A stretch of DNA of 40,106 bases from a virus. Position 1 is the first letter of the stretch; the number at the start of each line of letters is the position of its first letter. Location: the IMG/VR virus record IMGVR_UViG_3300025326_000104, positions 1-40,106 of that record, one strand, 5' to 3'. Positions 3,299 to 37,101 of this stretch are shown here, piece by piece. The notes beneath the pieces are model-generated. The model made no database searches. It was not told the DNA's origin and saw nothing but the letters and a program-made list of their open reading frames with translations. Position numbers and translations under genes: made by a program.

Positions 3299-3975
3299 TT
3301 TTTCTTCCGTTCTTTCTTTGCCCACAAGATACGACAAGTCTTACCGTTGTGCAAGAAAAAAATTCGGGAAAATTCCGTTCCGTTAGGTGTAACCGTTGTG
3401 GAACCTTTTCCGACAGTTTCTTCCTTATGTTCACTTTCTGAACGTGAGTTACCCACTACCACAAAAGGCATTTCACATTTTCTGGCTAATGATCGTTGAA
3501 AAGTACTGACAAAATGTGAAAGGAAGGGTATATAGGGAAAGCTCACGTTACTTCCCCAAAGGGTGGGGTTTATCTCAAGAGGTTGTGTAGGTAGAAAGGA
3601 TCGGTTTGGTGTTCCGGATGTGGAAGAGATTGGTTAGCCTCAGGAAACAAGCCAGGCTCGTGTCAAACGTTTCGGTCAGAATTTGCGCAGGCGTGCAAAG
3701 TATTCGCTGGGAAACAAATTGCCGGTGCTGAGGAAACATTTTTCCCACTTGGTAAAGAGTACGATCGTTGTTTTTATTGAAGTTACAGTGTTGGCACAAG
3801 GTTTGTATCTATGTTGCCAGGTCTTTGACATACAGCCGTCACTAAAGTAACCAGCGGGTTGCGATAATGGGCGCAAAGAATGAAGCGTTATCTTGGGTTT
3901 GGTTTGGCATACCTAAGTACATTGCTATGAATGCCTTTTTTCTTACTAATTTCTATTAAAGAAAGGGGCTTAACA
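3299..3975. other. Divergent intergenic region between late and early units
   Basis: This 677-bp stretch separates the minus late operon from the plus early operon and should hold the promoters of both. I see a hairpin repeat at 3424-3448, a small GC hairpin CCCC/GGGG near 3554-3568, and a TTGACA hexamer at 3825-3830 with only a weak TAACCA 17 bases on. Short open frames exist on the minus strand, for example from an ATG at 3471 with weak upstream signal, and a 30-codon plus frame at 3867-3959. None has a convincing ribosome binding site, so I do not call them genes. Confidence 0.5.
3424..3448 (-). repeat. Dispersed hairpin repeat, copy 1
   Basis: Read on the minus strand it has left arm CTCACGTTCA, a five-base loop GAAAG and right arm TGAACATAAG, followed by GAAG. 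It is identical in arms and loop to the copy at 9637-9661, on the opposite strand. It lies about 125 bp upstream of the terminase-small-like gene. Confidence 0.8.
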
Positions 3976-4509
3976 ATGGTTACTAAAGCCAAAGCCAACA
4001 GGTTCCAGCATACTATTCAAGATGCCAAAGAATATGGACTGGATTCAATCCGAAGGACGATAACGGTTATCTACTTCGGTTGCAAGCGGGATGAGAAAGG
4101 CAAAACCGAGATCAAGTCGGAGCAGTACGAGCAGGAATTTAAGGCTAAGTACACAACCCCAGAAGAAGCTCACGAAGCGGTTATGGAGAAGATAGCCAAA
4201 ACGGTAACGTTCGATTTCAAAGACGTTAGCGTTGAAGAACTTCTGGCGTTGAACTTGACTCAGACTCCCGTTTTCAAGCTTTGGTATAACAACGAGCTCA
4301 CAAAGAATACTTTGGCTGAGATCGTTGAAATGCCAAAAGCAATAACCGTCAACGTCAGGGATTTACTCGACGGAAGAAACCAGCGGGATTCCAACCTGAC
4401 TAAAAAGTCAGATGCAGAACTTGACTCAGAAACGGAAAAGCTGATGAAGAGAATGGCAAAGATTGAGGCGGAGAAGACAAAACGGTCACGGGGAGGAGAG
4501 ACGGTCTAA
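3976..4509 (+). CDS. First early gene, hypothetical 177-aa protein
   Basis: The start is ATG at 3976 with AAGGGG at a good distance. An earlier ATG at 3931 would add 15 residues but lacks a binding site. The protein starts MVTKAKANRFQHTIQDAKEY and is soluble and charged, with a central mixed alpha/beta part (ITVIYFGCKRDEKGKTEI). Its C-terminal 35 residues (LTKKSDAELDSETEKLMKRM onwards) match the tail of the 163-residue protein at 6640-7131, suggesting a shared helical interaction motif. A strong terminator follows at once, so it is a monocistronic early transcript. Function unknown. An early takeover or DNA-binding role would fit its position, but that is inference. Confidence 0.75.
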   Translation: MVTKAKANRFQHTIQDAKEYGLDSIRRTITVIYFGCKRDEKGKTEIKSEQYEQEFKAKYTTPEEAHEAVMEKIAKTVTFDFKDVSVEELLALNLTQTPVFKLWYNNELTKNTLAEIVEMPKAITVNVRDLLDGRNQRDSNLTKKSDAELDSETEKLMKRMAKIEAEKTKRSRGGETV

Positions 4510-4519
4510 ACCCGCTTTG

Positions 4520-4558
4520 AAAAAACCCTTAGCCTATAAATGGTTAAGGGTTTTTTTT
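4520..4558 (+). terminator. Strong intrinsic terminator
   Basis: A 15-bp stem (A-run plus CCCTTAGCC pairing with GGTTAAGGG plus T-run, one G-U pair) with a seven-base loop is followed by eight T. It lies 11 bases after the stop of the first early gene. The flanking A and T runs could make it work in both directions. Confidence 0.9.
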
Positions 4559-4600
4559 GTCCGGTTTGGGTTACAAAATTACAAAATTTTGGTTGTTACA

Positions 4601-4634
4601 AATGTAGCTCTTGTTACTGTTGTAGCTCTTGTTA
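4601..4634 (+). repeat. 34-bp inverted repeat, left arm, with two 14-bp iterons
   Basis: The unit TGTAGCTCTTGTTA occurs twice as a direct repeat (4603-4616 and 4621-4634) at an 18-bp period. The whole arm is the reverse complement of 4788-4821 at 32 of 34 positions. Confidence 0.9.
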
Positions 4635-4693
4635 TGACCCGTTCTTTCCTTTTCGTTAGGAAGAAATCCTAAAAGCATATTAAGGGTCTCAAG

Positions 4694-4719
4694 TTTTTTT
4701 TTTTTTTTTTTTTTTTTTT
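4694..4719 (+). repeat. Homopolymer of 26 T
   Basis: An uninterrupted run of 26 T (26 A on the minus strand) lies between the inverted repeat arms. It is the longest homopolymer I see in the window. The exact length is prone to sequencing error. Confidence 0.85.
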
Positions 4720-4787
4720 CTAATAGAAAAAATCCTAATAGGATAATCTGAATTAAAATAGGATAACCGAGAACAGAACACACCCAG

Positions 4788-4821
4788 TAACAAGAGCTAC
4801 AAGAGTTACAAGAGCTACATT
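4788..4821 (-). repeat. 34-bp inverted repeat, right arm, with two iterons
   Basis: This arm is the inverted partner of 4601-4634. It contains the iteron twice in reverse (TAACAAGAGCTACA, then TTACAAGAGCTACA) at the same 18-bp period. The arms are separated by about 153 bp that include the T-run. Confidence 0.9.
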
Positions 4822-4840
4822 TTGCCGTCTGTGCTTTTGT

Positions 4841-4867
4841 TATAATTGGTGAACAAACGTTTACCAA
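4841..4867 (+). promoter_or_regulatory. Promoter-like -10 box overlapped by operator-like palindrome
   Basis: TATAAT at 4841-4846 runs directly into a dyad: TTGGTGAAC (4846-4854), a four-base centre, GTTTACCAA (4859-4867), with one mismatch. A dyad placed over a transcription start is the classic site for a dimeric repressor. No good -35 box is visible, so this could be a regulated or activated promoter for the 4984 gene. Confidence 0.45.
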
Positions 4868-4872
4868 AAGCC

Positions 4873-4902
4873 GCGCAAATTTTTGGTGCGCAAACTTTGC
4901 GC
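4873..4902. repeat. GCGCAAA direct and inverted repeats
   Basis: GCGCAAA occurs at 4873-4879 and again at 4888-4894. The second copy forms the perfect palindrome GCGCAAACTTTGCGC (4888-4902). It is GC-rich against an AT-rich background, just upstream of the 4984 gene. Confidence 0.7.
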
Positions 4903-4983
4903 TTGCTTTCCGCTCCCGCCGGTTGTAAATTTCAACGTGCCGGACTCCGTCTAAGGAACAGAACCTTAAAAGAGTAATTAACC

Positions 4984-5394
4984 ATGACTAAGACAAAACA
5001 CTCCGCCCTACCTTCCGAAGATTATCCTTCATCGTTTGTATTCAACGCTCGTGGCGATCTCAAAGACTTTGCAATTGTAATCTCGGTGCTTGAGAGCAAA
5101 TATAATTATCGGATTCGAAGTAAATCAGATGTGATAGCTACAGCATTGGCTATTCTTGCACAAAGCTTTAAGGACAATAAACTGTTACCTTTTCCGATTA
5201 ATTCTTATGAGGAAGCAGAAGCTTATCTTAAAAGCTTAGATTTTCTTAATATTCGTAAAAATATTCGGACAAAGGTTTCTAAAGAAGTTAAGTTAAACTT
5301 GCCTTCGGGGAACTACGTTTCCTCTTTAGAGAAAGCGAGAAGAGAAATCAAACTTTCCTCACGTTCAGATTCTGAACATGAGGAAGAAGCTTAA
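4984..5394 (+). CDS. Small regulator-like protein, 136 aa, possible ribbon-helix-helix fold
   Basis: ATG at 4984. After about 15 polar residues there is a beta-strand-like segment (SSFVFNARGD), a long helix (LKDFAIVISVLESKYNYRIR) and RSKSDVIATALAILAQSF, which resembles the second helix of ribbon-helix-helix regulators (SKSDVIxxAL). The match is suggestive only. The C-terminal half is basic and then acidic. The last residues, SSRSDSEHEEEA, are encoded by a copy of the dispersed hairpin (5358-5382). It lies directly downstream of the iteron region and an operator-like palindrome, so an autoregulator or origin-binding protein would fit. Confidence 0.6.
   Translation: MTKTKHSALPSEDYPSSFVFNARGDLKDFAIVISVLESKYNYRIRSKSDVIATALAILAQSFKDNKLLPFPINSYEEAEAYLKSLDFLNIRKNIRTKVSKEVKLNLPSGNYVSSLEKARREIKLSSRSDSEHEEEA
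5358..5382 (+). repeat. Dispersed hairpin repeat, copy 2
   Basis: Left arm CTCACGTTCA, loop GATTC, right arm TGAACATGAG, followed by GAAG. Pairing extends outward (TTC/GAA) to a 13-bp stem with one mismatch. It is inside the 3' end of the 136-residue gene and encodes its tail. Confidence 0.85.
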
Positions 5395-5465
5395 TTTAAA
5401 CTATAACTCAAAACCAGGGCAGTCCGGCGGCCCACGATGCCGGAAATTAAAAGTGAGGTGTTATT

Positions 5466-5636
5466 ATGTCAGAAGTAATTTTCGTTTCGTGTATCTATAT
5501 TTTCCTTGCCCTCGCATCTGGTCTCGCATGGGGAGAATATCATATCAAGAGTGAAACTGCAGCCTGGATGAAATGGCAAGAAGAGAAAAAGAATCTTCTA
5601 CAGCGCAGAAATAAACCAGTAAAGTATGGAAACTAA
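5466..5636 (+). CDS. Small single-span membrane protein, 56 aa
   Basis: ATG with GAGGTG seven bases upstream. The product begins MSEVIFVSCIYIFLALASGLA, one hydrophobic segment over residues 4-21. A basic, charged tail follows (MKWQEEKKNLLQRRNKPVKY). It is probably anchored with the tail in the cytoplasm. No family is recognised. The gap before it (5395-5465) contains a TCCGGC/GCCGGA hairpin near 5428-5449. Confidence 0.65.
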   Translation: MSEVIFVSCIYIFLALASGLAWGEYHIKSETAAWMKWQEEKKNLLQRRNKPVKYGN

Positions 5637-5660
5637 TAAAACTAAGAGAAGGAGGAAAAA

Positions 5661-5861
5661 ATGACCCTCGCGGAAGTGCATCCAACAGATCGCAATTATC
5701 CACAAGCATTAAAGTTTGTAGGACATGCCGCAGAACCGATTTCCCTACATCATAGCACGCAGGTACATGGTTACCATATGGGCAGAGTCAAAATTCAAGG
5801 ACGGGTTTTCTTATTTGGGGCAATAAAACTGAAAGTGTCTCGTCGACGCACTAAATTATAA
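5661..5861 (+). CDS. Hypothetical early protein, 66 aa
   Basis: A strong AGGAGG precedes the ATG. The small protein is His-rich (HHSTQVHGYHMGR around residues 29-41) and has a basic C-terminus (KVSRRRTKL). I see no known motif and its membership of a family is unknown. It lies between two small genes in the same direction, all with good binding sites. Confidence 0.6.
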   Translation: MTLAEVHPTDRNYPQALKFVGHAAEPISLHHSTQVHGYHMGRVKIQGRVFLFGAIKLKVSRRRTKL

Positions 5862-5885
5862 TGTCAAAAACAAAGGAGAACTAAG

Positions 5886-6065
5886 ATGAAAGCAAAAATT
5901 GAGAAGGGAATTTTGATAATTGAAATTCCTGTTCAAGACCCGCCACGCCCTTCCAAAAGTGGAAAAACTTTGGTTGTGGCAAGCTCGTACGGAAATGTTG
6001 CTACTACAGCGGAAGTAGGAGGAAAACCAGTAGTAATAGGGTTGAATGCCTACATATCAAAGTAA
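5886..6065 (+). CDS. Hypothetical early protein, 59 aa
   Basis: ATG preceded by AAAGGAG at ten bases. It is a short beta-rich protein (KGILIIEIPVQDPPRPSKSG, TLVVASSYGN, KPVVIGLNAYIS). Such compact strand patterns occur in small phage proteins related to DUF-type beta folds, but I cannot name one. The stop is five bases before a long hairpin at 6070-6143. Confidence 0.65.
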   Translation: MKAKIEKGILIIEIPVQDPPRPSKSGKTLVVASSYGNVATTAEVGGKPVVIGLNAYISK

Positions 6066-6069
6066 AACC

Positions 6070-6143
6070 AAAAGGCTCCTTGTTCTCCACTACAAACCCC
6101 TCCTTTGGAAAATTGCCCAAGACGGAGAGCAAGGATGCCTTTT
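6070..6143 (+). promoter_or_regulatory. Long hairpin with anti-Shine-Dalgarno-like loop
   Basis: AAAAGGC, CCTTG and TCTCC on the left pair with GGAGA, CAAGG and GCCTTTT on the right: about 18 pairs including one G-U, with a small bulge. The loop of about 35 bases contains CCCCTCCTTTGG, close to the 16S rRNA anti-Shine-Dalgarno core CCTCCTTT. It could pair with the AAAGGA of the gene at 6169. The stem ends in TTTTATT, so it may act as a terminator, a translation control element or both. Confidence 0.55.
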
Positions 6144-6168
6144 ATTAACCTAAAGAAAGGAAAAAGAG

Positions 6169-6396
6169 ATGAAACGAATCTTAGTACTTGAAACCATCAG
6201 GTATATGTATGAAGTACCTAACAATGCTCCACTTGAAAGTGACTTAGCCTTTCAGATTTTTTTAAAGCAAGAAAAAATCAAAGCTCTTAGTAGTGAAACC
6301 GATTGGGAAATCATTGACGAAATCTATGTTCCTGATATTCCTGAATACATCCCAGAAGATGATCCAGACAATATCTCCGATGGGGAAAAAATATGA
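6169..6396 (+). CDS. Hypothetical acidic protein, 75 aa
   Basis: ATG preceded by AAAGGA. The sequence MKRILVLETIRYMYEVPNNA suggests one strand and helix. The tail is strongly acidic (VPDIPEYIPEDDPDNISDGE), which resembles small DNA-mimic or inhibitor proteins only in charge. No family is recognised. The stop overlaps the next start in ATGA. Confidence 0.6.
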   Translation: MKRILVLETIRYMYEVPNNAPLESDLAFQIFLKQEKIKALSSETDWEIIDEIYVPDIPEYIPEDDPDNISDGEKI

Positions 6397-6503
6397 GAGT
6401 AAACATTGGACGCCTTAACAGACTAATTGATCTGCTAATAACAACCATTCTTTATATCATCCTAATCTCTCTTATTTTCATCTTTGTTCTGGAACTCAAA
6501 TGA
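6393..6503 (+). CDS. Tiny single-span membrane protein, 36 aa
   Basis: It starts in the ATGA overlap with the 75-residue gene and ends in another ATGA overlap. Residues 12-33 (LLITTILYIILISLIFIFVL) are a clear membrane span after a basic N-terminus. Coupling on both sides supports real translation. Function unknown. Small early membrane proteins in phages can serve exclusion or membrane-targeting roles, which is speculation here. Confidence 0.55.
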   Translation: MRVNIGRLNRLIDLLITTILYIILISLIFIFVLELK

Positions 6504-6625
6504 CAATTCTCGAACAAGTTTATCCAATTCATTTTGGCTTGATAGAAGATTCAATTTTGAATGAAGCGTTAAACATCATTAACGAACCGGAGGCTCAAGT
6601 CTCCAAAACCAATAATCCAAAATAA
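6500..6625 (+). CDS. Tiny hypothetical protein, 41 aa
   Basis: It starts in the ATGA overlap with the membrane protein gene and has no separate ribosome binding site. It begins MTILEQVYPIHFGLIEDSIL, predicted helical, and ends just before the AGGAGG of the following gene. The only support is its coupling and tidy fit between neighbours. Confidence 0.4.
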   Translation: MTILEQVYPIHFGLIEDSILNEALNIINEPEAQVSKTNNPK

Positions 6626-6639
6626 GGAGGATTTGCAAT

Positions 6640-7131
6640 ATGCAGATCAATTTCTCATTAACACCAGGACGAGTCGAGTCCCTGAAGAATCAGGCGGCAG
6701 AAGCCGACTCGAAAATGACCGAAGACCGAAAGGAAGCGATTCTCGCTCTACCGGACGGAGGTTATGAATACACCGGAGAAAAAGAAGAGTTTGATTCTGA
6801 TTTTCCGGACTTCGTAGAATGGCTGACTGGAGCATCGATCACAGTTGACAGTGGTGATGCCAGTTATGCCAAACACTTGGTAATAGAGCACGCCAAGTTC
6901 AGTCTTGCAGAAGCAGGGCGTCGGTTTCTGGAGACTGCAGAATATACCGAGGCTGGAAATCTGACGAAAGCATCGAAGGATAAGCTCGATGCTTTCGTAG
7001 CAGAATATAAGCCATCGCCAGGACGGAGTTCCTCACTGTCAAACAAGTCGGATGAAGAACTTGCCGAAGAGACAAGACTGCTTGAAAAGAAACTGGAAAA
7101 GATTCGGCAAATCACAGCCCAGAGAAGTTAA
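6640..7131 (+). CDS. Hypothetical early protein, 163 aa, paralogous C-terminal motif
   Basis: ATG preceded by AAGGAGG. The protein is mostly helical and charged: MQINFSLTPGRVESLKNQAA, then an acidic central part and helices (AEAGRRFLETAEYTEAGNLT). The last 32 residues (LSNKSDEELAEETRLLEKKL onwards) follow the pattern KSDxELxxETxxLxKxxxKI seen at the end of the first early protein (3976-4509). This looks like a small helical hairpin or coiled-coil module shared by two early proteins. Function unknown. A hairpin follows at 7165. Confidence 0.7.
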   Translation: MQINFSLTPGRVESLKNQAAEADSKMTEDRKEAILALPDGGYEYTGEKEEFDSDFPDFVEWLTGASITVDSGDASYAKHLVIEHAKFSLAEAGRRFLETAEYTEAGNLTKASKDKLDAFVAEYKPSPGRSSSLSNKSDEELAEETRLLEKKLEKIRQITAQRS

Positions 7132-7164
7132 TCGCCTCTTCCGATTACCAAGTATTAAGAATAA

Positions 7165-7190
7165 CTCTGCCCTCTTGAAAGGGGGCAGAG
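7165..7190 (+). terminator. Hairpin, weak terminator
   Basis: CTCTGCCC pairs with GGGCAGAG, plus a T-G and a C-G pair, to give a ten-bp stem and six-base loop. It is 33 bases after the stop of the 163-residue gene. The following bases are ATTCTATTAAA, not a good T-run, so read-through or RNA processing is possible. Confidence 0.5.
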
Positions 7191-8925: not shown

Positions 8926-9290
8926 TGAAAACAATAATTGCAGGAAGTCGTGACTTCAATGACTATGAAACTCTCCTGGCTGTTCTTCTCAAAGTTGGTT
9001 GGCATATCTCTGAGGTTGTAAGTGGTGGAGCTCATGGAGTAGACCAACTTGGAGAACGTTTCGCAAAAGCTAATGGTATCACCTATACAGTCTTTAAAGC
9101 TGATTGGGATCAATTTGGTAGAAGAGCTGGAATGCTTCGTAACAAGGAAATGGCAAACTATGCAGACGCTTGTGTTGTTATATGGAACGGACACAGTTCA
9201 GGCTCGGCAGACATGATTGAAACTGCAATGAATGAATGTAGGCTTACAATGGTTTATAATCTTAGCGTCAAAAGAAAGGAGGAGAAATGA
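8922..9290 (+). CDS. DUF2493 (YspA-like) SLOG-family protein
   Basis: The 122-residue protein has the family signatures: IIAGSRDF at residues 5-12, VVSGGAHGVDQLGERFA (nucleotide-binding loop) in the middle, FGRRAGMLRNKEMANYADA, and VIWNGHSSGSADMIETA. SLOG/Rossmann proteins of this group bind nucleotide-derived ligands. The DUF2493 family occurs often in phages with unknown reaction. It starts in ATGA overlap with the nuclease gene; two adjacent ATG codons are possible starts. A role in sensing or modifying nucleotides during replication is inferred from fold and neighbours. Confidence 0.85.
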   Translation: MMKTIIAGSRDFNDYETLLAVLLKVGWHISEVVSGGAHGVDQLGERFAKANGITYTVFKADWDQFGRRAGMLRNKEMANYADACVVIWNGHSSGSADMIETAMNECRLTMVYNLSVKRKEEK

Positions 9291-9682
9291 ACCTATGTGT
9301 TACTTGTGGAGAACAGATTCATTTCGACGGTAAGATCTGGATACATTCAACTTCTTCTCCAGAACATCCAGCCATTCCGAAAGAACTTTCTCCTTCTCAA
9401 ATTGTCGAGGAAATCATGAGACGGATTGGTCTAATCAAAGAAGAAATGAAAGTCAATTTTGTGTATGGAATCGTTTTGCCAACACCACATTCACGTTTAG
9501 AAGGAACTTTTTCTATAAACCAAGTCGTAACTTTCATTCCCGACGCTCCTCCGAAACTAAATGTGCATTGCTTAAAAATTATTGCAAATATGGCTTTCGA
9601 TCTGGCTCGCCAAATTGAGCTACAAAATCGTCCTTCCTCACGTTCAGAAAGTGAACATAAGGTGAAACGAGGATTAAACTAA
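9287..9682 (+). CDS. Hypothetical protein with N-terminal zinc-site-like motif, 131 aa
   Basis: It starts in ATGA overlap, with AAAGGAGG just upstream. MNLCVTCGEQIHFDGKIWIH plus a later His (residue 27, SSPEHPAIP) gives a Cys-x2-Cys/His pattern that could bind zinc. The centre is mixed alpha/beta and unknown. The last residues, SSRSESEHKVKRGLN, are encoded by a copy of the dispersed hairpin (9637-9661). That matches the tail style of the 136-residue protein at 4984-5394. Confidence 0.65.
   Translation: MNLCVTCGEQIHFDGKIWIHSTSSPEHPAIPKELSPSQIVEEIMRRIGLIKEEMKVNFVYGIVLPTPHSRLEGTFSINQVVTFIPDAPPKLNVHCLKIIANMAFDLARQIELQNRPSSRSESEHKVKRGLN
9637..9661 (+). repeat. Dispersed hairpin repeat, copy 3
   Basis: Left arm CTCACGTTCA, loop GAAAG, right arm TGAACATAAG, followed by GTG. 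It matches the 3424-3448 copy exactly in all 25 bases, in the opposite orientation, and lies in the 3' end of the 131-residue gene. Confidence 0.85.
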
Positions 9683-13367: not shown

Positions 13368-13625
13368 ATGAATTTAGAAACTCTTAAGATTCCATACTTG
13401 AATCTTCTTCTCGAACAGAAAAGAATCCTTATTCTTTCTATTCGAGAATCACGTCTTCAGATCAAAAAGAAATCTACTAACAAAGTTAAGAGCAAAGTAG
13501 CAAGGGCAAAGAAAGTTAAAAGCATCGAAGATATGACAGAAAAAGAGATTGAAAAGAGAATAGAATCTATTATAAAACTACTCGAGGAGAGAAAAAATGC
13601 CAAAGAAAAGAAAACCAATTCCTAA
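13368..13625 (+). CDS. Small basic coiled-coil-like protein, 85 aa
   Basis: ATG preceded by AAAGG. After MNLETLKIPYLNLLLEQKRI comes a lysine-rich helical stretch and a coiled-coil-like end (DMTEKEIEKRIESIIKLLEE). It overlaps the methyltransferase gene by 29 bp in another frame. No function can be assigned. Confidence 0.55.
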   Translation: MNLETLKIPYLNLLLEQKRILILSIRESRLQIKKKSTNKVKSKVARAKKVKSIEDMTEKEIEKRIESIIKLLEERKNAKEKKTNS

Positions 13626-15075
13626 TAGTACCAAAATAGAAGTCCCTCACAAACGAAGAATTGAAACTCCGTCAAAGGTAGCTCGAATACTTATCAAAGA
13701 TATCAATCCAGGGGATCGCATACGTTCTGGACTCGGTGAGGAAACTCCAGAGCAATGGAAAGAGTTTAAAGAGTCTTTAACAGAGCGAGGTCAGATAACT
13801 CCAATAACTGTAATGGAATATGAAAATCCATTTGGGGGTTTAAAGTATTTTCTTCTCGCCGGAGAGCGCAGACTGAGAGCATTGAAAGAACTCGATCAGA
13901 AGGAAATCAATGTCGCCATTTATCCACCCGATCTAAGCGCAGATGAAATAATAGCAATTGAGCTTCGGGAAAATCTTGATCGAACAGACTTTACTCCAGA
14001 GCAAGAAGCGAAAGGGATACAGAAGTTCCACGAGGCTTGTGTCACTTTGTATGGACAGAGAAAGAAAGGACAATCTACCAGCGAAGGGCACTCGCTCGAA
14101 GATACTGCACGAATGCTCGGCAAATCAAAGGCAAAGGTAAGCGAGGCTATATCAGCGGCGAAAGTATTCAACGCCATACCGGAACTCGGAAAGCACGTAA
14201 AGAAGTGGTCTGACCTAAAAAGGATTTCATACGAAGCCGAGAGACAAGTCGAAAGAGATCAACGAAAGCAGGTAATGAAAAAGGCGGACCAAAATGCAAC
14301 ATCTACACAAATTAGAAATTTAATTGCTGATTGGTATATCGTCAATGACTCAGTAGTTGGTCTAAAAGAACTTGATTCTGAATCAATTGATCTTGTAGAA
14401 TTTGATCCTCATTATCCGATTGAGGAAAACGAAAGAATAACTACTACTAAAACTTTCCAGGAAGCGAAGACAAGAAAGTCTTACAAGGCAACTGATCGAG
14501 AACAGTTTCCCACAATTTTCAAAGCCAATGTATCAGAAGCTCATCGTGTTCTTCGTCCTGACGGATGGCTCATAATTTGGTTTGGCTACGAATTTTTTTG
14601 GGAGATTCAGAAGTGGCTTTTCGAGGCAAGATTTATCCCAACTCAGCCTGTGGAAGGAAAAGGAGCGCCACTATTTTTTCATGGGAAGTGGTACAAAGAA
14701 GGCTTCGGACATAGTAATAATCCGTTTGATACTCTTGGTCACTCAATCGAGCCTTTCTTTTATGTAAAAAAATCTGGAAAGGCTCGCCTTAACAAGCCCC
14801 ACAGTGATGTTTTCAAACACGCTCCGAATCATTGGAAAAAGAAAGTTAACCCATTTGAGAAACCTGTTGGGTTGTATGAAGAAATTCTTTGCACCTTCGT
14901 ACCGGAAGAATCATTCATAGTGAGCTCCTGTGTAGGAAGTGGAAACATCTTACTTGCTTGTGCAAATTATAACTGTGTTGGGAAGGGATTCGATCTGAGC
15001 GAGCAATTCAAGGAAGATTATGTTTTGAATGTTCATAACGAAGTACCACCTAATTATGGAAAGAAAGGAGAATGA
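13597..15075 (+). CDS. ParB-like domain fused to beta-class DNA methyltransferase
   Basis: The 492-residue protein has two parts. Residues 30-210 resemble ParB/Srx: ILIKDINPGDRIR, GQITPITVMEY, LLAGERRLRALKEL (89-99), ELRENLDRTDFTPEQEAKGI and a KorB-like helix-turn-helix (LEDTARMLGKSKAKVSEAIS). Residues 245-480 are a methyltransferase with motif IV first (LVEFDPHYPI, 266-275) and the SAM-binding motif last (NPFEKPVGLYEEIL then SSCVGSGN at 443-450), the order of beta-class N4-cytosine/N6-adenine enzymes. Motif IV reads DPHY instead of DPPY/F/W. A phage orphan methyltransferase targeted by the ParB part would protect DNA from host restriction. GAGGAG supports the start. Confidence 0.85.
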   Translation: MPKKRKPIPNSTKIEVPHKRRIETPSKVARILIKDINPGDRIRSGLGEETPEQWKEFKESLTERGQITPITVMEYENPFGGLKYFLLAGERRLRALKELDQKEINVAIYPPDLSADEIIAIELRENLDRTDFTPEQEAKGIQKFHEACVTLYGQRKKGQSTSEGHSLEDTARMLGKSKAKVSEAISAAKVFNAIPELGKHVKKWSDLKRISYEAERQVERDQRKQVMKKADQNATSTQIRNLIADWYIVNDSVVGLKELDSESIDLVEFDPHYPIEENERITTTKTFQEAKTRKSYKATDREQFPTIFKANVSEAHRVLRPDGWLIIWFGYEFFWEIQKWLFEARFIPTQPVEGKGAPLFFHGKWYKEGFGHSNNPFDTLGHSIEPFFYVKKSGKARLNKPHSDVFKHAPNHWKKKVNPFEKPVGLYEEILCTFVPEESFIVSSCVGSGNILLACANYNCVGKGFDLSEQFKEDYVLNVHNEVPPNYGKKGE

Positions 15076-18750: not shown

Positions 18751-19952
18751 CCAAACTTCCTGACTGGATTATTGGATGGAAAGAATACACAGCAAATCTC
18801 GAATCTCCTCGTATTTATTCGGAATGGGTAGCTGTGTCTGTAATTGCTTCTGCTCTAAGTCGTAAGGTTGGACTTTTATGGGACAGGAAACTCTTTCCTA
18901 ACTTTTACATTTTCCTCGTTGGACCACCAGGAGCTCGTAAGGGTACTGCTCTTAATCCTGGAAGAAAGATGCTAAGCCAAATAAATGTACCTATGGCACC
19001 GGCAGCTTTGACAAGGCGCCGCTTCCTTTCTATAATGGCGGCATCTGGAGCTGGAGGAAAATCCCTCTCAATAGATCGCCGAGTAAACAAACCAATCTCA
19101 GAAATGACAGTCTTTTCAGGAGAAGTAACTGTTTTCATCAATCATCATAACTTTCAACTTGTTAAAGACTTAACTGATCTATTTGATACCGACGAGGAGA
19201 AATGGCGCTATGAAACTGAAACTCAAGGCGCTGATATTCTTATTAATCCCTTTGTCAACATTATTGGAGGAACCCAACCTGGAATGCTTGCACGCATGAT
19301 TCCGGATGAAGCAGTAACAATCGGATTCATGAGTCGAGTGATCTCCGTTTACGAAGAAGGAAAGGAACGTAACATCGCCTTCCCACAGGACATCAGACCT
19401 TCAGAGGAACTTGAAAGTGCTTTGCTTTCAGATTTAAGAGAAATGCGTGAGAAAAGGGGATGGTTTAAAATTGACAAATCTTTCCGTAAAGTTTACGAGA
19501 ATTGGTACAATAATAAAAAGGATGATGTAAGATTATATGAAGAACGTCTTTCAGAATATAAAGAGCGCAGACAGACTCACCTCCTTAAACTATGTATGAT
19601 AATGAACATATCCCGCAAAGGAAATATGGTTATTACAGAGGAGGATTTCAATAGAGCCTATGATCTTTTAACAAGAACAGAAGAAAAGATGAGTAGAACT
19701 TTCGCTGGTATGGGGCGCCTTGAAGATGCAGATGTAATGGACGCTATATTTCGCTTCGTCTATCAAAATGGAAAAGTCAAATTTTCAGAAATCATGTCAC
19801 GATTCTGGCGTGAAATCGATGAAAAAAGAGTATCAACTATGATAGCTACATGGGAGAAAATGGGAGAGGTAATATGCAAAGGGGTTGAAGGAAATGCGAC
19901 AGACGCTTTAATTGTATTTAATTATGACAACAAAGATGAAAAGAAAAGTTAA
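18747..19952 (+). CDS. DUF3987-type ATPase, probable replicative helicase
   Basis: The 401-residue protein begins TKLPDWIIGWKEYTANLESP, then has a Walker A loop VGPPGARKGTA at residues 58-68, EMTVFSGEVTVFINHHNF as the likely Walker B region, and INPFVNIIGGTQPGML as sensor strand. This is the DUF3987 layout, often encoded beside phage polymerases and thought to be a replicative helicase. A C-terminal winged-helix-like part (DAIFRFVYQNGKVKFSEIMS) may bind DNA. No primase motif is seen here or elsewhere in the window. It starts in ATGA overlap. Confidence 0.75.
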   Translation: MTKLPDWIIGWKEYTANLESPRIYSEWVAVSVIASALSRKVGLLWDRKLFPNFYIFLVGPPGARKGTALNPGRKMLSQINVPMAPAALTRRRFLSIMAASGAGGKSLSIDRRVNKPISEMTVFSGEVTVFINHHNFQLVKDLTDLFDTDEEKWRYETETQGADILINPFVNIIGGTQPGMLARMIPDEAVTIGFMSRVISVYEEGKERNIAFPQDIRPSEELESALLSDLREMREKRGWFKIDKSFRKVYENWYNNKKDDVRLYEERLSEYKERRQTHLLKLCMIMNISRKGNMVITEEDFNRAYDLLTRTEEKMSRTFAGMGRLEDADVMDAIFRFVYQNGKVKFSEIMSRFWREIDEKRVSTMIATWEKMGEVICKGVEGNATDALIVFNYDNKDEKKS

Positions 19953-20388
19953 ATATATTATCTTTCCTGGTTGGAGTTATGGCAATCGTACAGCAGTCTA
20001 TCGAACTGCTGATTATTTGCTCCGCCTTCATAGCATAAAACCAAGTGAATGTATTATGATCGACAAGGGAAAACCTATCGACGTAGCGTTTTACAATTGC
20101 TGTTACAGCATTCTCAAAGATCGTATTCACATTTATCCATTACCTTTAAATGAGAAAGAACCAATTGGGATAAAGATCGAAGTTGATTGGAAAGACCTTA
20201 GAAAAACTCTTGGTATGAGTGCGAGAGAAGTTGCGACAGATCTTGGGATTAAAGAAGGAACTTATTCGTCATACGAAAACTTTAGGTCAAGCCCTAAACC
20301 TATTTTGAAGAAAAATATGTTAAATTATTTTGAAATGAAAATTAGTGATTTAATCTCACGTTCACGAAATGAACGTAAGGAAGGGTGA
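19924..20388 (+). CDS. HTH_XRE-type regulator with unknown N-terminal domain
   Basis: The frame begins inside the end of the helicase-like gene. ATG at 19924 or 19936 are both possible and binding sites are weak. The C-terminal 65 residues are a classic XRE helix-turn-helix: WKDLRKTLGMSAREVATDLG, IKEGTYSSYENFRSSPKP. The N-terminal 85 residues (KRKVKYIIFPGWSYGNRTAV, then IKPSECIMIDKGKPIDVAFY) look alpha/beta and are not recognised. It is the last early gene, a fitting place for an early-to-late switch. Its tail (SRSRNERKEG) is encoded by the hairpin repeat at 20355-20379. Confidence 0.7.
   Translation: MTTKMKRKVKYIIFPGWSYGNRTAVYRTADYLLRLHSIKPSECIMIDKGKPIDVAFYNCCYSILKDRIHIYPLPLNEKEPIGIKIEVDWKDLRKTLGMSAREVATDLGIKEGTYSSYENFRSSPKPILKKNMLNYFEMKISDLISRSRNERKEG
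20355..20379 (+). repeat. Dispersed hairpin repeat, copy 4, at the convergent junction
   Basis: Left arm CTCACGTTCA, loop CGAAA, right arm TGAACGTAAG, followed by GAAG. It lies at the end of the last early gene. The late gene's stop is 14 bases away on the other strand, so it could help end both transcripts. No T-run follows. Confidence 0.85.
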
Positions 20389-28628: not shown

Positions 28629-30246
28629 TAGAAGTTGATCTTTTGAATCTTCTGTCAACGAATTTGATAACTGGGTAGAAGCCCCAGATTCTTTTAATCT
28701 TTGCATAATCATTTACCTTTAGTCTAAATCTAAAATCAAGGGAAGTGACAGGATAATTAACTTCCCCATTATGATTGATCAATCTATAAGGAGTCGTTGA
28801 AAAATCTTCCCTCGTTCCATATCTATAATCCACAGCCAATGACAAAGTAGGAATCGAATCTCCAATCGTTTCTTCCTTAAAGAAAACATGAAAGGCATCG
28901 AGCTGTTTCAAACCTGGATCAAGAAAGTTTGCAATGTCAATACATATCCTTCCTTCATCAACTCCATCATCATAGTAATCCGTAATCCCAATTGTGTCTC
29001 CCTTCCAATAAGAAACACTCTTTATCTGTTGTCCTGTTTCAAAAAGCTCTCCGTTATAAACAAAGGTTTTATGTTCGGTACAAATAAAATACTTACCAAT
29101 CCCTTTGAGATCAGAGGGGTCAGGGCTATGAAACATAACAATATCAGTATCTCTGATATTCCACAAATATTCCTTATACCCCTCAACAGTAACTGTAAGA
29201 TCAGAATCAATGCGAACAAGATTTCCTCCTTTGTCAATAAAAACAAAGCTTCGTTCATCACCAGCAAATGCCTTCGCCGTTACTCCTAAGTTATATAACT
29301 TCCTTTGTCCAATCATGGGAGCAGGACTTTGAACATTGAATAAAGCGTGAATACTCTCATCGAGTACTGCAATCAAGGCATCTTGAAACGCATGAAAGTG
29401 GCGCACCTTGCCAATACCATCAATAGCCATCCATCCTTGATCTCCCCTCTGCCAAAGATCAAACAACAAAGGTTTGCTCGATCCATAAATACTCGAAACA
29501 TAACCACTCTCAGCAAGGGTAGGAAAGAACAACCATAAAACATCGCCTCCTCCTATAAGTGAGTACCAAATGAAATTTTCTTCCATTGGCATGAATGGAG
29601 TATCTTCATTTATCGGTCTTGTTGCAGAAATGCCAGTATTGATACCAACACCATCTTCATTAGTGTACCATTTGGTCCAAAACTCTTTCCAGTCAGTGTT
29701 CCAAAACTGATTGTAATCAAATCCCCCAAAAAATACACGCCCTTTCCAATAAGTCATAGTTTCAATTGGCAAACCACTCTTGACATAAACCTTTGGAGTC
29801 TCACCTACCATTGTTTCTTTACCTGAAAAGAATACTGTATCTACTCCATTAGTCAACAACCAAGTGTTCTGCATATCTACAAATGTCCACGGTTTTCCAG
29901 GAGTTATAGATTTTTCTGAATTGGGATTATCGGCGTCATAAGTTGTAAGAGGAATAAAAGGTTGAGTAAAATCATCACGATTGACGAGACGTATTTCATC
30001 ACGACCTGCAAGAATAACATACCTTTTTCCTATAAATAACTGTGGAAAAGGAAAGGTTGTATCGAACCCTTCGAGGGTTATTCTTTCAGCTGGGATAGCT
30101 TCCTCTACAGGAAGGTAAGGAACTAACCCATTTACAGTAGGCTCAAAATTGTATAAATCAAATAGATCGTAATTATTCGGTTTTTCCTGGTAATGCCTTC
30201 TCAGACCTTTCTTCAAATCTATTTGGTTGTCGTGAAAGCGTCTCAA
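28609..30246 (-). CDS. Tail nozzle / stabilisation protein, beta-propeller type
   Basis: TTG at 30246 with AAGGGG five bases upstream is the best start; it overlaps the coiled-coil gene by 74 bp. The 545-residue protein begins RRFHDNQIDLKKGLRRHYQE, DLYNFEPTVNGLVPYLPVEE, the opening of podovirus nozzle proteins. Blade-like repeats follow, rich in Trp, Tyr, Phe and Gly (LFIGKRYVILAGRDEIRLVN, WTFVDMQNTWLLTNGVDTVF, GRVFFGGFDYNQFWNTDWKE, KYFICTEHKTFVYNG). The protein ends with a strand reading KRIWGFYPVIKF. P22 gp10 and T7 gp12 play this role at the end of the short tail. Assignment rests on fold style and position two genes after the adaptor gene. Confidence 0.7.
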   Translation of the reverse strand: MRRFHDNQIDLKKGLRRHYQEKPNNYDLFDLYNFEPTVNGLVPYLPVEEAIPAERITLEGFDTTFPFPQLFIGKRYVILAGRDEIRLVNRDDFTQPFIPLTTYDADNPNSEKSITPGKPWTFVDMQNTWLLTNGVDTVFFSGKETMVGETPKVYVKSGLPIETMTYWKGRVFFGGFDYNQFWNTDWKEFWTKWYTNEDGVGINTGISATRPINEDTPFMPMEENFIWYSLIGGGDVLWLFFPTLAESGYVSSIYGSSKPLLFDLWQRGDQGWMAIDGIGKVRHFHAFQDALIAVLDESIHALFNVQSPAPMIGQRKLYNLGVTAKAFAGDERSFVFIDKGGNLVRIDSDLTVTVEGYKEYLWNIRDTDIVMFHSPDPSDLKGIGKYFICTEHKTFVYNGELFETGQQIKSVSYWKGDTIGITDYYDDGVDEGRICIDIANFLDPGLKQLDAFHVFFKEETIGDSIPTLSLAVDYRYGTREDFSTTPYRLINHNGEVNYPVTSLDFRFRLKVNDYAKIKRIWGFYPVIKFVDRRFKRSTSIDQAGR

Positions 30247-33578: not shown

Positions 33579-33590
33579 TTAAATTACCTC

Positions 33591-33983
33591 CTAACTTATA
33601 TCGGTAGCTAAAACTACCCATTGACCGCCCTGTGCCTGAAGGAAAGCATACTCTCCATCAGCATCGGGAGTTAAGTCTGACCAGTCTCCAATACTGTCAT
33701 CTTCATCCTGAAGGGAAGCTCCACCATAATCTGCAAATCTAATTAGATAGATGTTTCCTTCTGCGGCTGAAACAGATGGTAACTCGATAACAAGGGCATC
33801 AGTTCCGTTGACATCGAGTATAAGCACATGGTCATAGACTTTCATTTTATATTTAAGCGCACCGTCAGCGCTATAACTATCACCATCTATGGTAATGTTT
33901 CCGCTACCATCGGTGGAGATAAAGCGTGTTCGGTACGGAATAGGAACTTGTCCAATCCCTATTCGACTTTGTTCGGATTGCAT
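33591..33983 (-). CDS. Head fibre / decoration-like protein, 130 aa
   Basis: ATG preceded by AAAGGAG. The sequence is beta-rich: TRFISTDGSGNITIDGDSYS, DHVLILDVNGTDALVIELPS, EGNIYLIRFADYGGASLQDE, ending GGQWVVLATDIS. This resembles trimeric beta domains seen in head fibres and at fibre ends. It lies next to the beta-helix and capsid genes, so a decoration role is likely. No exact family is recognised. Confidence 0.6.
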   Translation of the reverse strand: MQSEQSRIGIGQVPIPYRTRFISTDGSGNITIDGDSYSADGALKYKMKVYDHVLILDVNGTDALVIELPSVSAAEGNIYLIRFADYGGASLQDEDDSIGDWSDLTPDADGEYAFLQAQGGQWVVLATDIS

Positions 33984-34004
33984 AATGAAATCTCCTTTAT
34001 CGAA

Positions 34005-34778
34005 TTAAATTTTCATTCTTCTTTGAGCTAAGGCACGAACGTCGTTTGGATCATCCTTACCTTTAGGAGTCGAACTCGACTTCCTACTTCTAAGTGTTCT
34101 ACGATTTCCTTCTGTCTCTACTTCGACACCCATTTTTTTGAGTGATTCACGCACCTCCTTTCCGGCTTCTTCATAAGCCGTTAGTACTGGTTTCTCAGGA
34201 TTAGCCGCTTTAATAGCGGACGCCCTTTGAGCAACGAAAGTTGCCGCAGGTAAAAGTTCTTCATTATTTCGCCAGAAAGCGTTAGCTGCATTAACTACTT
34301 CAATCTCTTCACGAACAGTCTTAGACATTTGATCTGGCATTGATTGCAAAATATCCTTCCTTGCCCGCTCATAAGTTGCTGAGGCTAATGCATTGGCGAA
34401 ATCAACAAACTTGGAACGGTCCTTAAACATATTTGTGAACTCATCTCCTTCAGGAATTTTGATGTTTCCATCAGGAGGAACATGAGGAACCGGCTTTGGC
34501 TCAGGCTTCGGAACAGAACTTGGAGTTGGAGACGGAGCGGACTTGGATGTCAAACCTTTGGAAAGACGTTCAAGCTCTTGCAAAAACAACAGTCCTTGAT
34601 TTACATTAACTGGATCCGGTTCTGGCTCTGGCTCTGGCTCTGGCTCTGGTTCAGGTTTCGGATCTGGTTCAGGTTTTGGGTCAACTTTCGGAATTCCCCC
34701 GCCTTTCTTAGGATCAGCAAAGTATAAAATTCCATAGCCATCAAACAATGGCTTCAAAAAATTAAATAAAAACAACAT
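34005..34778 (-). CDS. Scaffold protein with Glu-Pro repeat, 257 aa
   Basis: AAGGAGA precedes the ATG. A hydrophobic N-terminus (MLFLFNFLKPLFDGYGILYF) is followed by a Pro-Lys/Pro-Glu repeat (residues 33-56, hexanucleotide repeat in the DNA at about 34615-34680). A helical body typical of scaffolds (KFVDFANALASATYERARKD, FVAQRASAIKAANPEKPVLT, EEAGKEVRESLKKMGV) and a basic tail complete it. Position between portal and capsid genes fits. The N-terminal hydrophobic segment is unusual for a scaffold. Confidence 0.7.
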   Translation of the reverse strand: MLFLFNFLKPLFDGYGILYFADPKKGGGIPKVDPKPEPDPKPEPEPEPEPEPEPDPVNVNQGLLFLQELERLSKGLTSKSAPSPTPSSVPKPEPKPVPHVPPDGNIKIPEGDEFTNMFKDRSKFVDFANALASATYERARKDILQSMPDQMSKTVREEIEVVNAANAFWRNNEELLPAATFVAQRASAIKAANPEKPVLTAYEEAGKEVRESLKKMGVEVETEGNRRTLRSRKSSSTPKGKDDPNDVRALAQRRMKI

Positions 34779-34780
34779 GA

Positions 34781-35119
34781 CTATGTCTCCTTATTTTTAG
34801 TTAGTTTAATTTTTTCTTCATCTTCTATTCTTATCTGCTCAGACTTCACAGTTTCAATAAGATTAAAGATAAAATCAATTCTTTGAAACTGTCCTTGAAG
34901 CTGATGAAGTTCTTGCTCTCCTAACTGCTCTCCAGTAGGGTATCTTCTTCCTTGAGTAAGTTCTGCCATAATTTGTCTCTGATCAAGCACAAGCAATCCT
35001 TCTAACCATTTCCAAACTGGGTCTTTCTGGAAAGCATTAAATTGGTGAACAGTTGGATATCTAACTTCCTCTTCATCAAACTGAGCAGAAATAATCTTTT
35101 CAAATTGTTCTTTATTCAT
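34781..35119 (-). CDS. Hypothetical protein between portal and scaffold, 112 aa
   Basis: It starts in ATGA overlap with the portal gene. The protein is helical and charged (MNKEQFEKIISAQFDEEEVR, EQLGEQELHQLQGQFQRIDF). Genes at this place often encode small portal- or scaffold-associated proteins. No family is recognised. Confidence 0.6.
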   Translation of the reverse strand: MNKEQFEKIISAQFDEEEVRYPTVHQFNAFQKDPVWKWLEGLLVLDQRQIMAELTQGRRYPTGEQLGEQELHQLQGQFQRIDFIFNLIETVKSEQIRIEDEEKIKLTKNKET

Positions 35120-37062
35120 CTGGCTACTCCTAATTGTGCAGGAGTTACATAATTTCCTGCTTGTACTTGACTTTCAATTTGGCCTTCTGGTTCAATCCTC
35201 GCTTGCGGAGCTCTGCGCTTCATAAATTCCTGTGGATTCTTTGCTCCGAGCAATCTTGCAATATGTAACCAAACTCTGGTGAAATCAATTCTCTGATATA
35301 ACTCCGGACTCGCTTGGGTAATTGCAAGAAGTTGTTGCCAAACTTCCGCAGTATCACCTTGAGGCAAGCTTCCATCACGAACCAAAATATCGTAGTTAAT
35401 ATCAAGTGCATCAGGACTTACAATTAACCCTTCTTCCGTAATTCCATATTCATCCCTTAAAACTTCTTCATAATCTCCAGCAGTTTTAACATAAGTTTCT
35501 TGGCTCATATATTGAATCGTATTAGAAGCCAACATATAAGCTAAATCAAAATGGCCTTGCATCTCAACAATCCTTGCATTCTTTTCAAGACGGCTTAAAT
35601 TGCTCATTCGAGTATCTCTTGCCTCAGTAGCCGAAACTCTCTCGCCTCGTCTGTTTTGGAAACCTTGCATTTGATCAGTAGCGGCGGTAACTCTTTGCTT
35701 AATATCCATTAAAAATCCAATGTCAGTAATATTTCCTCTGGTGGCGTCCGATACCTGAAGTTGCATAATCGAATCTTTAACCCCACGCCCAAATGCCCTT
35801 GCTCTAAGGCGGGCAATCATACCGTATTTGGTATTAAGAACATCATTAATATTAATCATTGAAGGATCAATTACTAACATATTATTAATTGATTTTCTAA
35901 GCTCAATAACATGTGATGACCAAAGCCAGTCAACGGCGTGTTGAATAGGATACTCAATTTCCAGTAACGAAGTAGGAACAGTCGAGTGATCATCCGTATT
36001 GCTCGCCGTTACAGCGACTGGAATCCTACCGTGGTTATTAGCAAGCGGTTTTGCATAGATAATAACCCTATCTCCTGCAACTCCAAATTTCCAAATCTGA
36101 GTATATTTTTCTTTTCCAAGTTTAAAATCAGCAGGAATTAACTTTGCATACATCCACATTATATCAATAGGCTTAGTTTGTGGAAACATCCAGGGACTAT
36201 CGTTAGGTTTCACTTTCGTTGTGGCGTATCTGCCAGTCGTTGTTTCAGTTGCAGAATAAAATAAGCTTTTTGTATCCACCATTTCCTTAAGATATTTTAC
36301 ATTAAAAACATCTGGGTCATCTCTTTCATAATCAGAAAGATCAAAGTAATTAGTCCTTTCCAAACCCCCAAAAAATACCATATCCTTTACTTTATGAATA
36401 GGTACATTTGGATCAGGCAAACAATTATAGGGATCAAAAGCAAACAATGAATTTCCTTCATAAACAGTTTGTAGTTGAGTATCATCCACTAATGAGCCAA
36501 ACAAACTTTTTCTTTTTCTGGTAACGAAGGATTGTTCCTTAACAAATTCAACTCCAACTGCTCCGAATCCGTAAGTTACATCGTCCATCCAGTGAGTATG
36601 CAAATCAAGTCCCATTCTTCTTCTGCTCGCCTGTAATGAGATAAGTTTCTGAAGCATTATCGTTCCAAGTGCATCACGTGGATCAAACCAATCATATTTA
36701 AAAATCGGAGCTTCCATCAAAGCAGCCATCCGGTATGTCATAAGAGTTTCACGAGTAGCGTAACTTAAAGGAACCACCATACTTACTGGACGCCTTTTGT
36801 CTTCTTCCTTGTCTGATTGTTCTTCCTCTGACAAGTCAATATAAACATTCAACTTTCTGTCAAGTTCAGCCCAACTGGGATGGCGTACCCTCATTACATC
36901 ATAGGATTCCTTTGCATAACCCAGAAGAATCTTAAGAATATCGGCGTGATCCTGTGAATCCGGATCTAAATTAACACGAGCAGGATAATTCTTATATCGA
37001 AAGTCTTCTTTAAAAGTAACTTTCGACTTGCCCATCTGATTGTAAAAGCTCGGTGAAGGCAT
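35116..37062 (-). CDS. Portal protein, 648 aa
   Basis: The ATG has AAGGGAG ten bases upstream, part of which comes from the right arm of hairpin copy 5. The length and profile fit podovirus portals: YAKESYDVMRVRHPSWAELD, then SMVVPLSYATRETLMTYRMA near residues 100-120, VTYGFGAVGVEFVKEQSFVT, NSLFAFDPYNCLPDPNVPIH, RIPVAVTASNTD. A long helical part follows (DQMQGFQNRRGERVSATEAR, near residue 480) and a barrel-helix-like end. The portal forms the DNA entry ring and binds the terminase encoded just upstream. Confidence 0.85.
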   Translation of the reverse strand: MPSPSFYNQMGKSKVTFKEDFRYKNYPARVNLDPDSQDHADILKILLGYAKESYDVMRVRHPSWAELDRKLNVYIDLSEEEQSDKEEDKRRPVSMVVPLSYATRETLMTYRMAALMEAPIFKYDWFDPRDALGTIMLQKLISLQASRRRMGLDLHTHWMDDVTYGFGAVGVEFVKEQSFVTRKRKSLFGSLVDDTQLQTVYEGNSLFAFDPYNCLPDPNVPIHKVKDMVFFGGLERTNYFDLSDYERDDPDVFNVKYLKEMVDTKSLFYSATETTTGRYATTKVKPNDSPWMFPQTKPIDIMWMYAKLIPADFKLGKEKYTQIWKFGVAGDRVIIYAKPLANNHGRIPVAVTASNTDDHSTVPTSLLEIEYPIQHAVDWLWSSHVIELRKSINNMLVIDPSMININDVLNTKYGMIARLRARAFGRGVKDSIMQLQVSDATRGNITDIGFLMDIKQRVTAATDQMQGFQNRRGERVSATEARDTRMSNLSRLEKNARIVEMQGHFDLAYMLASNTIQYMSQETYVKTAGDYEEVLRDEYGITEEGLIVSPDALDINYDILVRDGSLPQGDTAEVWQQLLAITQASPELYQRIDFTRVWLHIARLLGAKNPQEFMKRRAPQARIEPEGQIESQVQAGNYVTPAQLGVAR

Positions 37063-37076
37063 TCAGTTTATTCTCC

Positions 37077-37101
37077 CTTACGTTCAAGAAATGAACGTGA
37101 G
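37077..37101 (-). repeat. Dispersed hairpin repeat, copy 5
   Basis: On the minus strand: left arm CTCACGTTCA, loop TTTCT, right arm TGAACGTAAG, followed by GGAG. It fills most of the 42-base gap between the terminase stop and the portal start. Its right arm supplies part of the portal ribosome binding site. Confidence 0.85.

Follow-up and report, generated by a model that had tools for sequence, protein, structure and literature searches.

N15-type phages carry dispersed centromeres. The stoperators of cluster A mycobacteriophages are asymmetric and are bound by the monomeric immunity repressor of these temperate phages (PMC6550527, PMC9283540). KorB of plasmid RK2, a CTPase clamp of the ParB family, represses promoters that are distant from its OB sites (PMC11790492), and in ParB and Noc the proven specificity residue is Arg173 and Gln173, respectively (PMC7383237). 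Fusions of a ParB CTPase to an N6_N4 methyltransferase are frequent in phages, and the accessible text of a survey describes their function as unknown (PMC12704722). Here we analyze five copies of a dyad in a 40,106-nucleotide stretch of viral DNA (the window; IMG/VR record IMGVR_UViG_3300025326_000104, positions 1 to 40,106). On sequence comparison, we consider it probable that, as a whole explanation, these dyads are parS-like loading sites of an orphan ParB-methyltransferase clamp encoded at positions 13597 to 15075.

Dyad families in the window and in related phages

A pattern scan allowing up to three mismatches recovered the 25-base palindrome at five places in the window and only there, on the strands and at the sites proposed in an earlier sequence-only reading, against an expectation of 0.01 copies in dinucleotide shuffles. 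No further credible copies were found in the window, and the five are unevenly spaced. The first copy (3424 to 3448, minus strand), CTCACGTTCA-GAAAG-TGAACATAAG, lies in the leader of a leftward small-terminase-like gene that starts at about 3298 or 3337, and the fifth (37077 to 37101, minus strand) precedes the portal start by 15 bp. The other three, all on the plus strand, overlap the 3′ ends of open reading frames, as that reading had it: copy 2 (5358 to 5382) that of a 136-aa ORF (4984 to 5394), copy 3 (9637 to 9661) that of an ORF at 9287 to 9682 preceding the DNA polymerase exonuclease gene, and copy 4 (20355 to 20379) that of a helix-turn-helix (HTH) gene (ORF 19912 to 20388) at the convergent junction of early and late genes. 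The contexts given here for copies 1 and 5, and the convergent setting of copy 4, are corrections. The GRAG reported next to the right arm can be put down in part to chance or to the Shine-Dalgarno sequence of the gene that follows; in copy 3 these bases are GTGA.

Relatives were found with two-sequence protein alignments against viral contigs, single-sequence protein scans of the same kind of contigs having found none. An exact motif scan of viral contigs returned one match, in a GC-rich unrelated phage, which we judged to be chance. The comparison covered OP947158 and the full sequence of 22 long contigs. A clear dyad family of 4 to 20 copies is present in 21 of the 22 contigs (it is weak in the remaining one, G003), and OP947158 likewise carries its own, so the repeat that had been called unusual for such a phage is the rule in its group. 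The dyads share an architecture of 25 bp with an odd center and 8 to 12 of 12 pairs matched, and their sequence is private to each phage, the genome-specific bases sitting in the arms and not the loops. Examples of the differing codes are TGGTTA (G014 type) and TGTCCC (OP947158 type). Shuffling the relatives' sequences gave at most one partner.

Some dyad positions are homologous between distant phages (∼35% protein identity) and have different sequences. The OP947158 dyad at 41276, which precedes the small terminase gene of that phage, is placed homologously to copy 1 of the window, and that at 29965 occupies the same place as copy 5, before the portal; another, directly after the primase gene, was compared with copy 4. 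The insertion-point comparison that had been suggested for related phages thus found placement partly homologous and dyad architecture kept, with arm sequence not conserved.

Across genomes, 162 of 239 dyads are intergenic, against 16 expected, and they are spaced more evenly than random gaps (combined p 1e-22). Selfish or REP-like mobile palindromes would also be repeated, intergenic, and private to each genome, but this option, raised in the earlier reading, sits badly with homologous positions occupied by differing sequences across phages of ∼35% identity, with the even spacing, and with the covariation between the dyads and the HTH of one phage protein described below, and we regard it as extremely improbable.

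The location of dyads in gaps between genes, often directly ahead of a Shine-Dalgarno sequence, would suit RNA hairpins with a function at mRNA 3′ ends, in processing, or in translation, but arm mismatches on the sense strand are A.C in 111 cases and G.U in 57, and sites with an excess of A.C outnumber those with an excess of G.U by 71 to 32. In the window the mismatches are C.A on the sense RNA and G.U on the antisense only, and therefore a hairpin in the orientation first proposed would be the weaker one; no T-run follows any of the window copies. With A.C about twice as frequent as G.U in sense, and with genome-specific arms that covary with one HTH protein, the suggested hairpin or terminator is unsupported, and we hold an RNA role to be very improbable. 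The A.C bias is oriented relative to transcription, an orientation for which a symmetric loading site does not account.

A ParB-methyltransferase fusion as candidate reader

The candidate reader gene (13597 to 15075, plus strand) encodes a 492-aa protein in which Pfam, PDB profiles, and a structure model identify a ParB_N domain (CTPase fold), an HTH, and an N6_N4 methyltransferase. Both Pfam matches exceed the curated cut-off (ParB_N PF02195, 2.5e-7; N6_N4_Mtase PF01555, 9.7e-7). Its profile matches in the PDB are Noc and DpnA-type methyltransferases, and the model (pLDDT 87) matches Noc, ParB, KorB (8qa9), and methyltransferases in Foldseek; VIA-align listed mainly methyltransferase chains, and the lack of ParB rows there is uninformative. 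In an alignment of 54 dyad genomes, the CTPase box motif GERR (13861 to 13872, plus strand; family GxRR) and the CTPase motif ENLDR (13969 to 13983, plus strand; family ENxxR) are both conserved in 54 of 54. The specificity region (14053 to 14175, plus strand) comprises a loop (aa 153 to 166) and the HTH helices (aa 167 to 174 and 178 to 193). The C-terminal half is the methyltransferase domain, and the canonical ParB C-terminal dimerization domain is not present. Methyltransferase motif IV reads DPHY (14404 to 14415, plus strand) where 45 of 54 relatives have DPPY, and the domain of the window phage is perhaps catalytically dead. DFPY and DIDY are other variants of this motif among the genomes.

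The fusion also occurs beyond the dyad-bearing phages. In the distant homologues L008 and L009 it is present, its HTH region matches poorly, and dyads are absent; dyads of other lengths were sought in outgroups L008 to L011, and none was convincing. Counting against this reader, a dyad family is missing from the available sequence of several loci in which the fusion has its HTH intact, and for some of these a length of only 10 to 15 kb probably explains the absence.

A ParB fold, an HTH, and palindromic sites could also belong to the partitioning of a plasmid-like prophage through ParA, with the dyads as parS centromeres and N15-type dispersed centromeres as precedent. However, the methyltransferase occupies the position that the C-terminal domain has in ParB, ParA (PF13614) stays below the cut-off in each of the 23 genomes, with G013 giving one weak match of 40 residues, and no tyrosine integrase (PF00589) was found in the 23 records. 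We consider partitioning quite unlikely.

The binders suggested previously, the 136-aa protein and the HTH protein of ORF 19912 to 20388, are unsupported. A search of 22 relatives, almost all of them dyad-bearing, gave no match to the latter, an HTH_3 protein (an empty answer with no positive control), and this protein shows no detectable similarity to its positional counterpart in OP947158.

Covariation of the HTH with site sequence

Whole-protein correlation with the site was undiscriminating (0.31 for the ParB-methyltransferase and 0.32 for the polymerase), as were single-column partial correlations alone, and we therefore used column windows, a held-out set, phylogenetically independent pairs, and nearest-neighbor tests across proteins. 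For nine conserved protein families, 567 windows of 38 columns were scored by nearest-neighbor prediction of a distant genome's site; at a cut of 0.45 the eight best of the 567 all fell at the ParB-methyltransferase HTH, and with a stricter cut a DNA polymerase window came close (2.54 versus 2.49). The ten top-ranked windows inside the ParB-methyltransferase each take in at least part of the HTH. The advantage of the HTH over other parts of the protein was significant at neighbor exclusions of 0.4, 0.55, and 0.6 but not at 0.5 (p 0.25).

K178 of the candidate reader, which covaries with the inner half-site, aligns with R173 of ParB and Q173 of Noc. It stands directly behind the G-x-S motif, exactly the place that R173 holds in ParB G170-K171-S172-R173. 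Histidine at residue 1 of the recognition helix goes with G at half-site position 7 in 13 of 15 cases, versus 8 of 87 otherwise. The outer site bases vary with the loop that leads into the HTH: among held-out loci added later, all 18 with a PGP loop had AG outer bases and all 30 without it did not. The held-out loci also fit predictions from the first set (DHK with GGGG, SH with TGG, SREKLRQD with TGCAAT), and the genome-contig locus L321 is consistent with the same loop/site code. Phylogenetically independent pairs were 5 to 6 concordant and 0 to 1 discordant for His/G7 (p about 0.06) and 3 concordant and 0 discordant for PGP/AG, the independent contrasts being few, about 10 in all.

These patterns make it highly likely that the dyads are recognized by the phage's own ParB-methyltransferase. 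A different phage or host protein might read them, with shared ancestry alone producing the match to the HTH; the covariation is statistical, and polymerase and f129 windows reach a similar partial correlation. Against this stand a signal placed exactly on the HTH and on a known specificity residue, several independent contrasts, the held-out set, and the behavior of the RHH-like small protein f82, the one further DNA-binding candidate that is near-universal (76 of 86), which does not covary (r 0.03). We judge another reader to be unlikely.

Possible roles of the sites and comparison with known systems

In reading the dyads as loading sites, we infer physical binding, dimerization, NTP-driven clamping, and biological purpose alike. 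A dimer would bring one HTH domain to each arm; there the inner bases, on the TTCA side, would be read by the recognition helix and the outer bases, on the CTCAC side, by the loop that immediately precedes the HTH. By analogy with ParB, Noc, and KorB, nucleotide binding would close the protein into a clamp that would leave the site and slide on adjacent DNA. Sites every few kilobases in intergenic gaps would let clamps cover the entire genome and take the methyltransferase (perhaps dead here) with them, so that phage DNA would be protected, modified, or silenced. Spacing suggests genome coverage as the purpose of the dispersed sites, a possibility that we rate at somewhat less than even.

The same reader might instead use the sites as regulatory operators, a KorB-like CTP clamp silencing or timing phage operons from dispersed positions. 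KorB itself is a precedent (PMC11790492) and a Foldseek match, dyads stand upstream of the portal and small terminase genes in both the window and OP947158, and the sites are biased in orientation relative to transcription. However, no fixed distance to −10/−35 boxes was found, divergent gaps show no enrichment (12 dyads against 18 to 28 expected) and convergent gaps hold 18 against 15 to 17, and a KorA-like partner is not known. We view this role as a tentative possibility. The dimeric operator of the sequence-only reading survives in that the dyad is apparently read by an HTH protein, and a classical operator is doubtful because the dyads are not promoter-positioned.

Returning to clamp loading, we speculate that in a large, apparently non-integrating phage family, evenly spaced private sites may load a CTP- or otherwise NTP-dependent ParB-methyltransferase clamp by which self is recognized and coated or modified, code and HTH diversifying as an identity system. 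What is new here is a set of candidate DNA sites for ParB-methyltransferase fusions in about 100 phages, together with a protein-DNA code in which two specificity elements can be told apart and a series of proteins and sites already paired by nature; the private dyad versions belong to a large family of uncultured phages. The job of the fusions, unknown in the accessible survey text (PMC12704722), becomes directly testable, as does the idea that ParB clamps serve purposes other than segregation and coat, modify, or silence the genome of an apparently lytic phage. For imaging tools, the collection is also a source of many ParB-site pairs that are potentially orthogonal.

The proposed system resembles Noc-NBS and ParB-parS of Bacillus and Caulobacter in its CTPase and HTH fold (PDB 7ng0/7nfu/7ol9), in its palindromic DNA sites, which are also dispersed for Noc, and in a specificity residue that follows G-x-S in the HTH (PMC7383237). 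It differs in having sites of 25 bp in place of the 16 bp of parS and NBS, whose outer bases form a second specificity element that the loop apparently reads in the phage system; in a methyltransferase that replaces the C-terminal dimerization domain; in that no ParA was found; and in sites and HTH that diversify among phages. With stoperators it shares short sites dispersed over a phage genome whose sequence varies between phage groups (PMC6550527, PMC9283540), but its dyads are symmetric, its candidate reader is of ParB type, and no tyrosine integrase was found here. KorB-OB of RK2 likewise employs a ParB-family CTPase clamp, which acts on targets far from its operators within a replicon some tens of kilobases long (PMC11790492), whereas the phage sites are longer, have no promoter register and no known KorA partner, and are paired with a methyltransferase fusion. 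The domain combination is identical to that of the surveyed phage fusions; unlike the accessible text of that survey (PMC12704722), which gives no DNA sites for them, the present analysis provides candidate sites, their spread along genomes, and a code by which they may be read.

Private dyads in the window and its relatives

The five dyads lie exactly where the sequence-only reading had placed them, at 3424-3448 (minus), 5358-5382, 9637-9661 and 20355-20379 (plus) and 37077-37101 (minus), with 0.01 matches expected by chance in shuffled sequence, and no further copy in the window emerged when dyads were sought under relaxed criteria with any spacer or when a PWM was scanned. All copies carry the constant arm CTCACGTTCA; the second arm differs between copies at two pyrimidine positions (3 and 5) and nowhere else, and the five central bases show no constraint. 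The window also contains, near 4524-4560, a hairpin that clearly resembles an intrinsic terminator, downstream of it a long T run flanked by inverted copies of GTAACAAGAGCTACA (4600-4820), and a six-base tandem repeat, AGCCAG, at 34621-34650 within the ORF at 34005-34778.

The nearest annotated genome, Desulfofustis phage LS06-2018-MD01 (OP947158; 35% identity in both terminase and polymerase), has a 25-bp dyad of its own, GCTATGTCCCAANTTGGGACATAGC, repeated nine times. We collected 160 loci from IMG/VR by scans with two-sequence alignments and searched de novo for repeated dyads in the sequences of at least 5 kb (n = 158), 74 of which held three or more copies, while shuffled sequences gave at most one partner. 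Full-length reading of 22 long contigs found 4 to 20 copies in each (four in G008; G003 weak), each contig with its own sequence, most commonly in the frame nCTnTGnnnA.....TnnnCAnAGn, with variants that include AGATTGTTCAT, GGTCTGTTCA, CACGTGTTCG and AGTTTGAATAAA. Dispersed private dyads are thus a trait of the phage family; the dyad search found none in four more distant phages (L008-L011). Candidates in L163, L111, L124 and G003 were weak or two-copy, possibly reflecting other site architectures. Occasional close pairs, ∼40 to 50 bp apart (G004 14335/14375 and 43316/43356; L025 2349/2389; G011 44948/44998; G012 29727/29778), suggest cooperative loading or an origin-like spot.

Placement and orientation of the sites

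The sites are mostly intergenic (162 of 239, versus 16 expected), with 30 more inside a gene but within 60 nt of its end (19 expected), and the usual site begins 0 to 10 bp past a stop codon and stops 10 to 20 bp ahead of the next start. Co-directional and convergent gaps host sites at about the frequency of the gaps themselves and divergent gaps show a deficit, although these counts are approximate because genes were called by a simple script. Spacing (median, 3.8 kb) is more even than random gap choice would give (p ≤ 0.052 in 19 of 21 genomes; combined p, 1e-22), and promoter boxes had no fixed relation to dyad position among the relatives' sites. The proposed comparison of insertion points and arms with related phages gave a divided answer: position is partly conserved, since window copy 5 and the OP947158 copy at 29965 both lie immediately upstream of the portal gene, copy 1 and 41276 upstream of a small-terminase-like gene, and copy 4 and 15469 after the primase gene, but the dyad sequence differs.

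The arms carry the genome-specific information. The earlier suggestion of an RNA hairpin is not supported by their mismatches, which on the sense strand are A.C more often than G.U (111 versus 57; 34 versus 11 at pair 5 across all relatives), the opposite of the bias expected of a selected RNA stem; in the window they read C.A, not G.U, along transcription. This bias shows that the sites have an orientation with respect to transcription; one hypothetical reason is selection against stable hairpins beside ribosome-binding sites.

A ParB-methyltransferase fusion as candidate reader

ParB-methyltransferase fusions are a known class of phage proteins, frequent but uncharacterised (PMC12704722), and the open-access literature searched held no report of DNA sites for them or of private dispersed dyads of this kind. 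The fusion here (13597-15075, plus) has Pfam ParB_N and N6_N4 methyltransferase domains; its family profile matches Noc (7ng0; 4e-22) across the CTPase fold and HTH, as well as DpnA-type methyltransferases, and its AlphaFold model (pLDDT 87) matches Noc, ParB, KorB and beta-class methyltransferases. The GxRR and ENxxR nucleotide-binding motifs are present in all 54 fusion proteins. At methyltransferase motif IV, 45 of them have DPPY and the other nine depart from it, reading DPHY in this phage (14404-14415) and DFPY (OP947158), DIDY (G001 and G002), DPDW, DTPY, DPDY, DPDF or DPPF in eight other dyad genomes; these may be catalytically dead methyltransferases retained in frame. Because dyads are kept in such genomes, the conserved part of the fusion appears to be DNA loading, not methylation.

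We propose that a dimer of the fusion would dock on the dyad through its two HTHs, close as an NTP-dependent clamp and then slide, as in ParB, Noc and KorB, with clamps starting from sites spread across the genome. Such clamps could serve to coat or modify the phage DNA against host defence, or to silence genes in the manner of KorB. The even spacing and the lack of promoter register speak for coating or modification, and the conserved copies ahead of portal and terminase genes keep silencing a plausible alternative. A partition role is unlikely, as neither ParA (PF13614, 23 genomes) nor a tyrosine integrase (PF00589, 23 records) was found.

Covariation of site and recognition helix

Sites private to each phage imply that a protein of the phage co-evolves with them, and we compared half-site profiles with nine protein families present in most loci, among them the fusion, which 84 of the 86 loci encode; the best windows lay on its HTH. 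When close relatives were excluded from a nearest-neighbour test, this HTH accounted for all eight top-ranking windows among the 567 across these families, and under stricter exclusion HTH windows still ranked first, with a polymerase window second. A nearly universal protein of ∼80 aa (L007 9872-10105 and its homologues, in 76 of 86 loci), whose pattern RLSVELTEEQ...IPWG..LFSAIVDDLI resembles a ribbon-helix-helix, did not covary with the dyads.

A second set of 77 loci was retrieved through the fusion protein, and 48 previously unused loci among them have dyads. The first-set rules held here: the outer bases were AG in 18/18 with a PGP loop ahead of the HTH and not AG in 30/30 without it, and helix DHK went with GGGG, SH with TGG and SREKLRQD with TGCAAT. 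A bacterial-MAG contig, L321, likewise combines the PGP loop with AGATCG sites. Two loci, L314 (299-324 and others) and L262, have even-centred 26- to 28-bp dyads in place of the 25-bp ones and share an unusual recognition helix, KSPASIV. Independent pairs on a tree from which the HTH was left out were concordant in 5 to 6 of 7 cases for His/G7 (0 to 1 opposed) and in 3 of 4 for PGP/AG (none opposed); shared phylogeny as the sole cause of the covariation is disfavoured, with some room left for it because these numbers are small.

Among traits linked to the inner bases, the strongest is the residue that follows G-x-S where the recognition helix begins. This is the position of R173 in Caulobacter ParB, which follows G170, K171 and S172 and was found by crystallography and mutational scanning to decide parS versus NBS specificity (PMC7383237).
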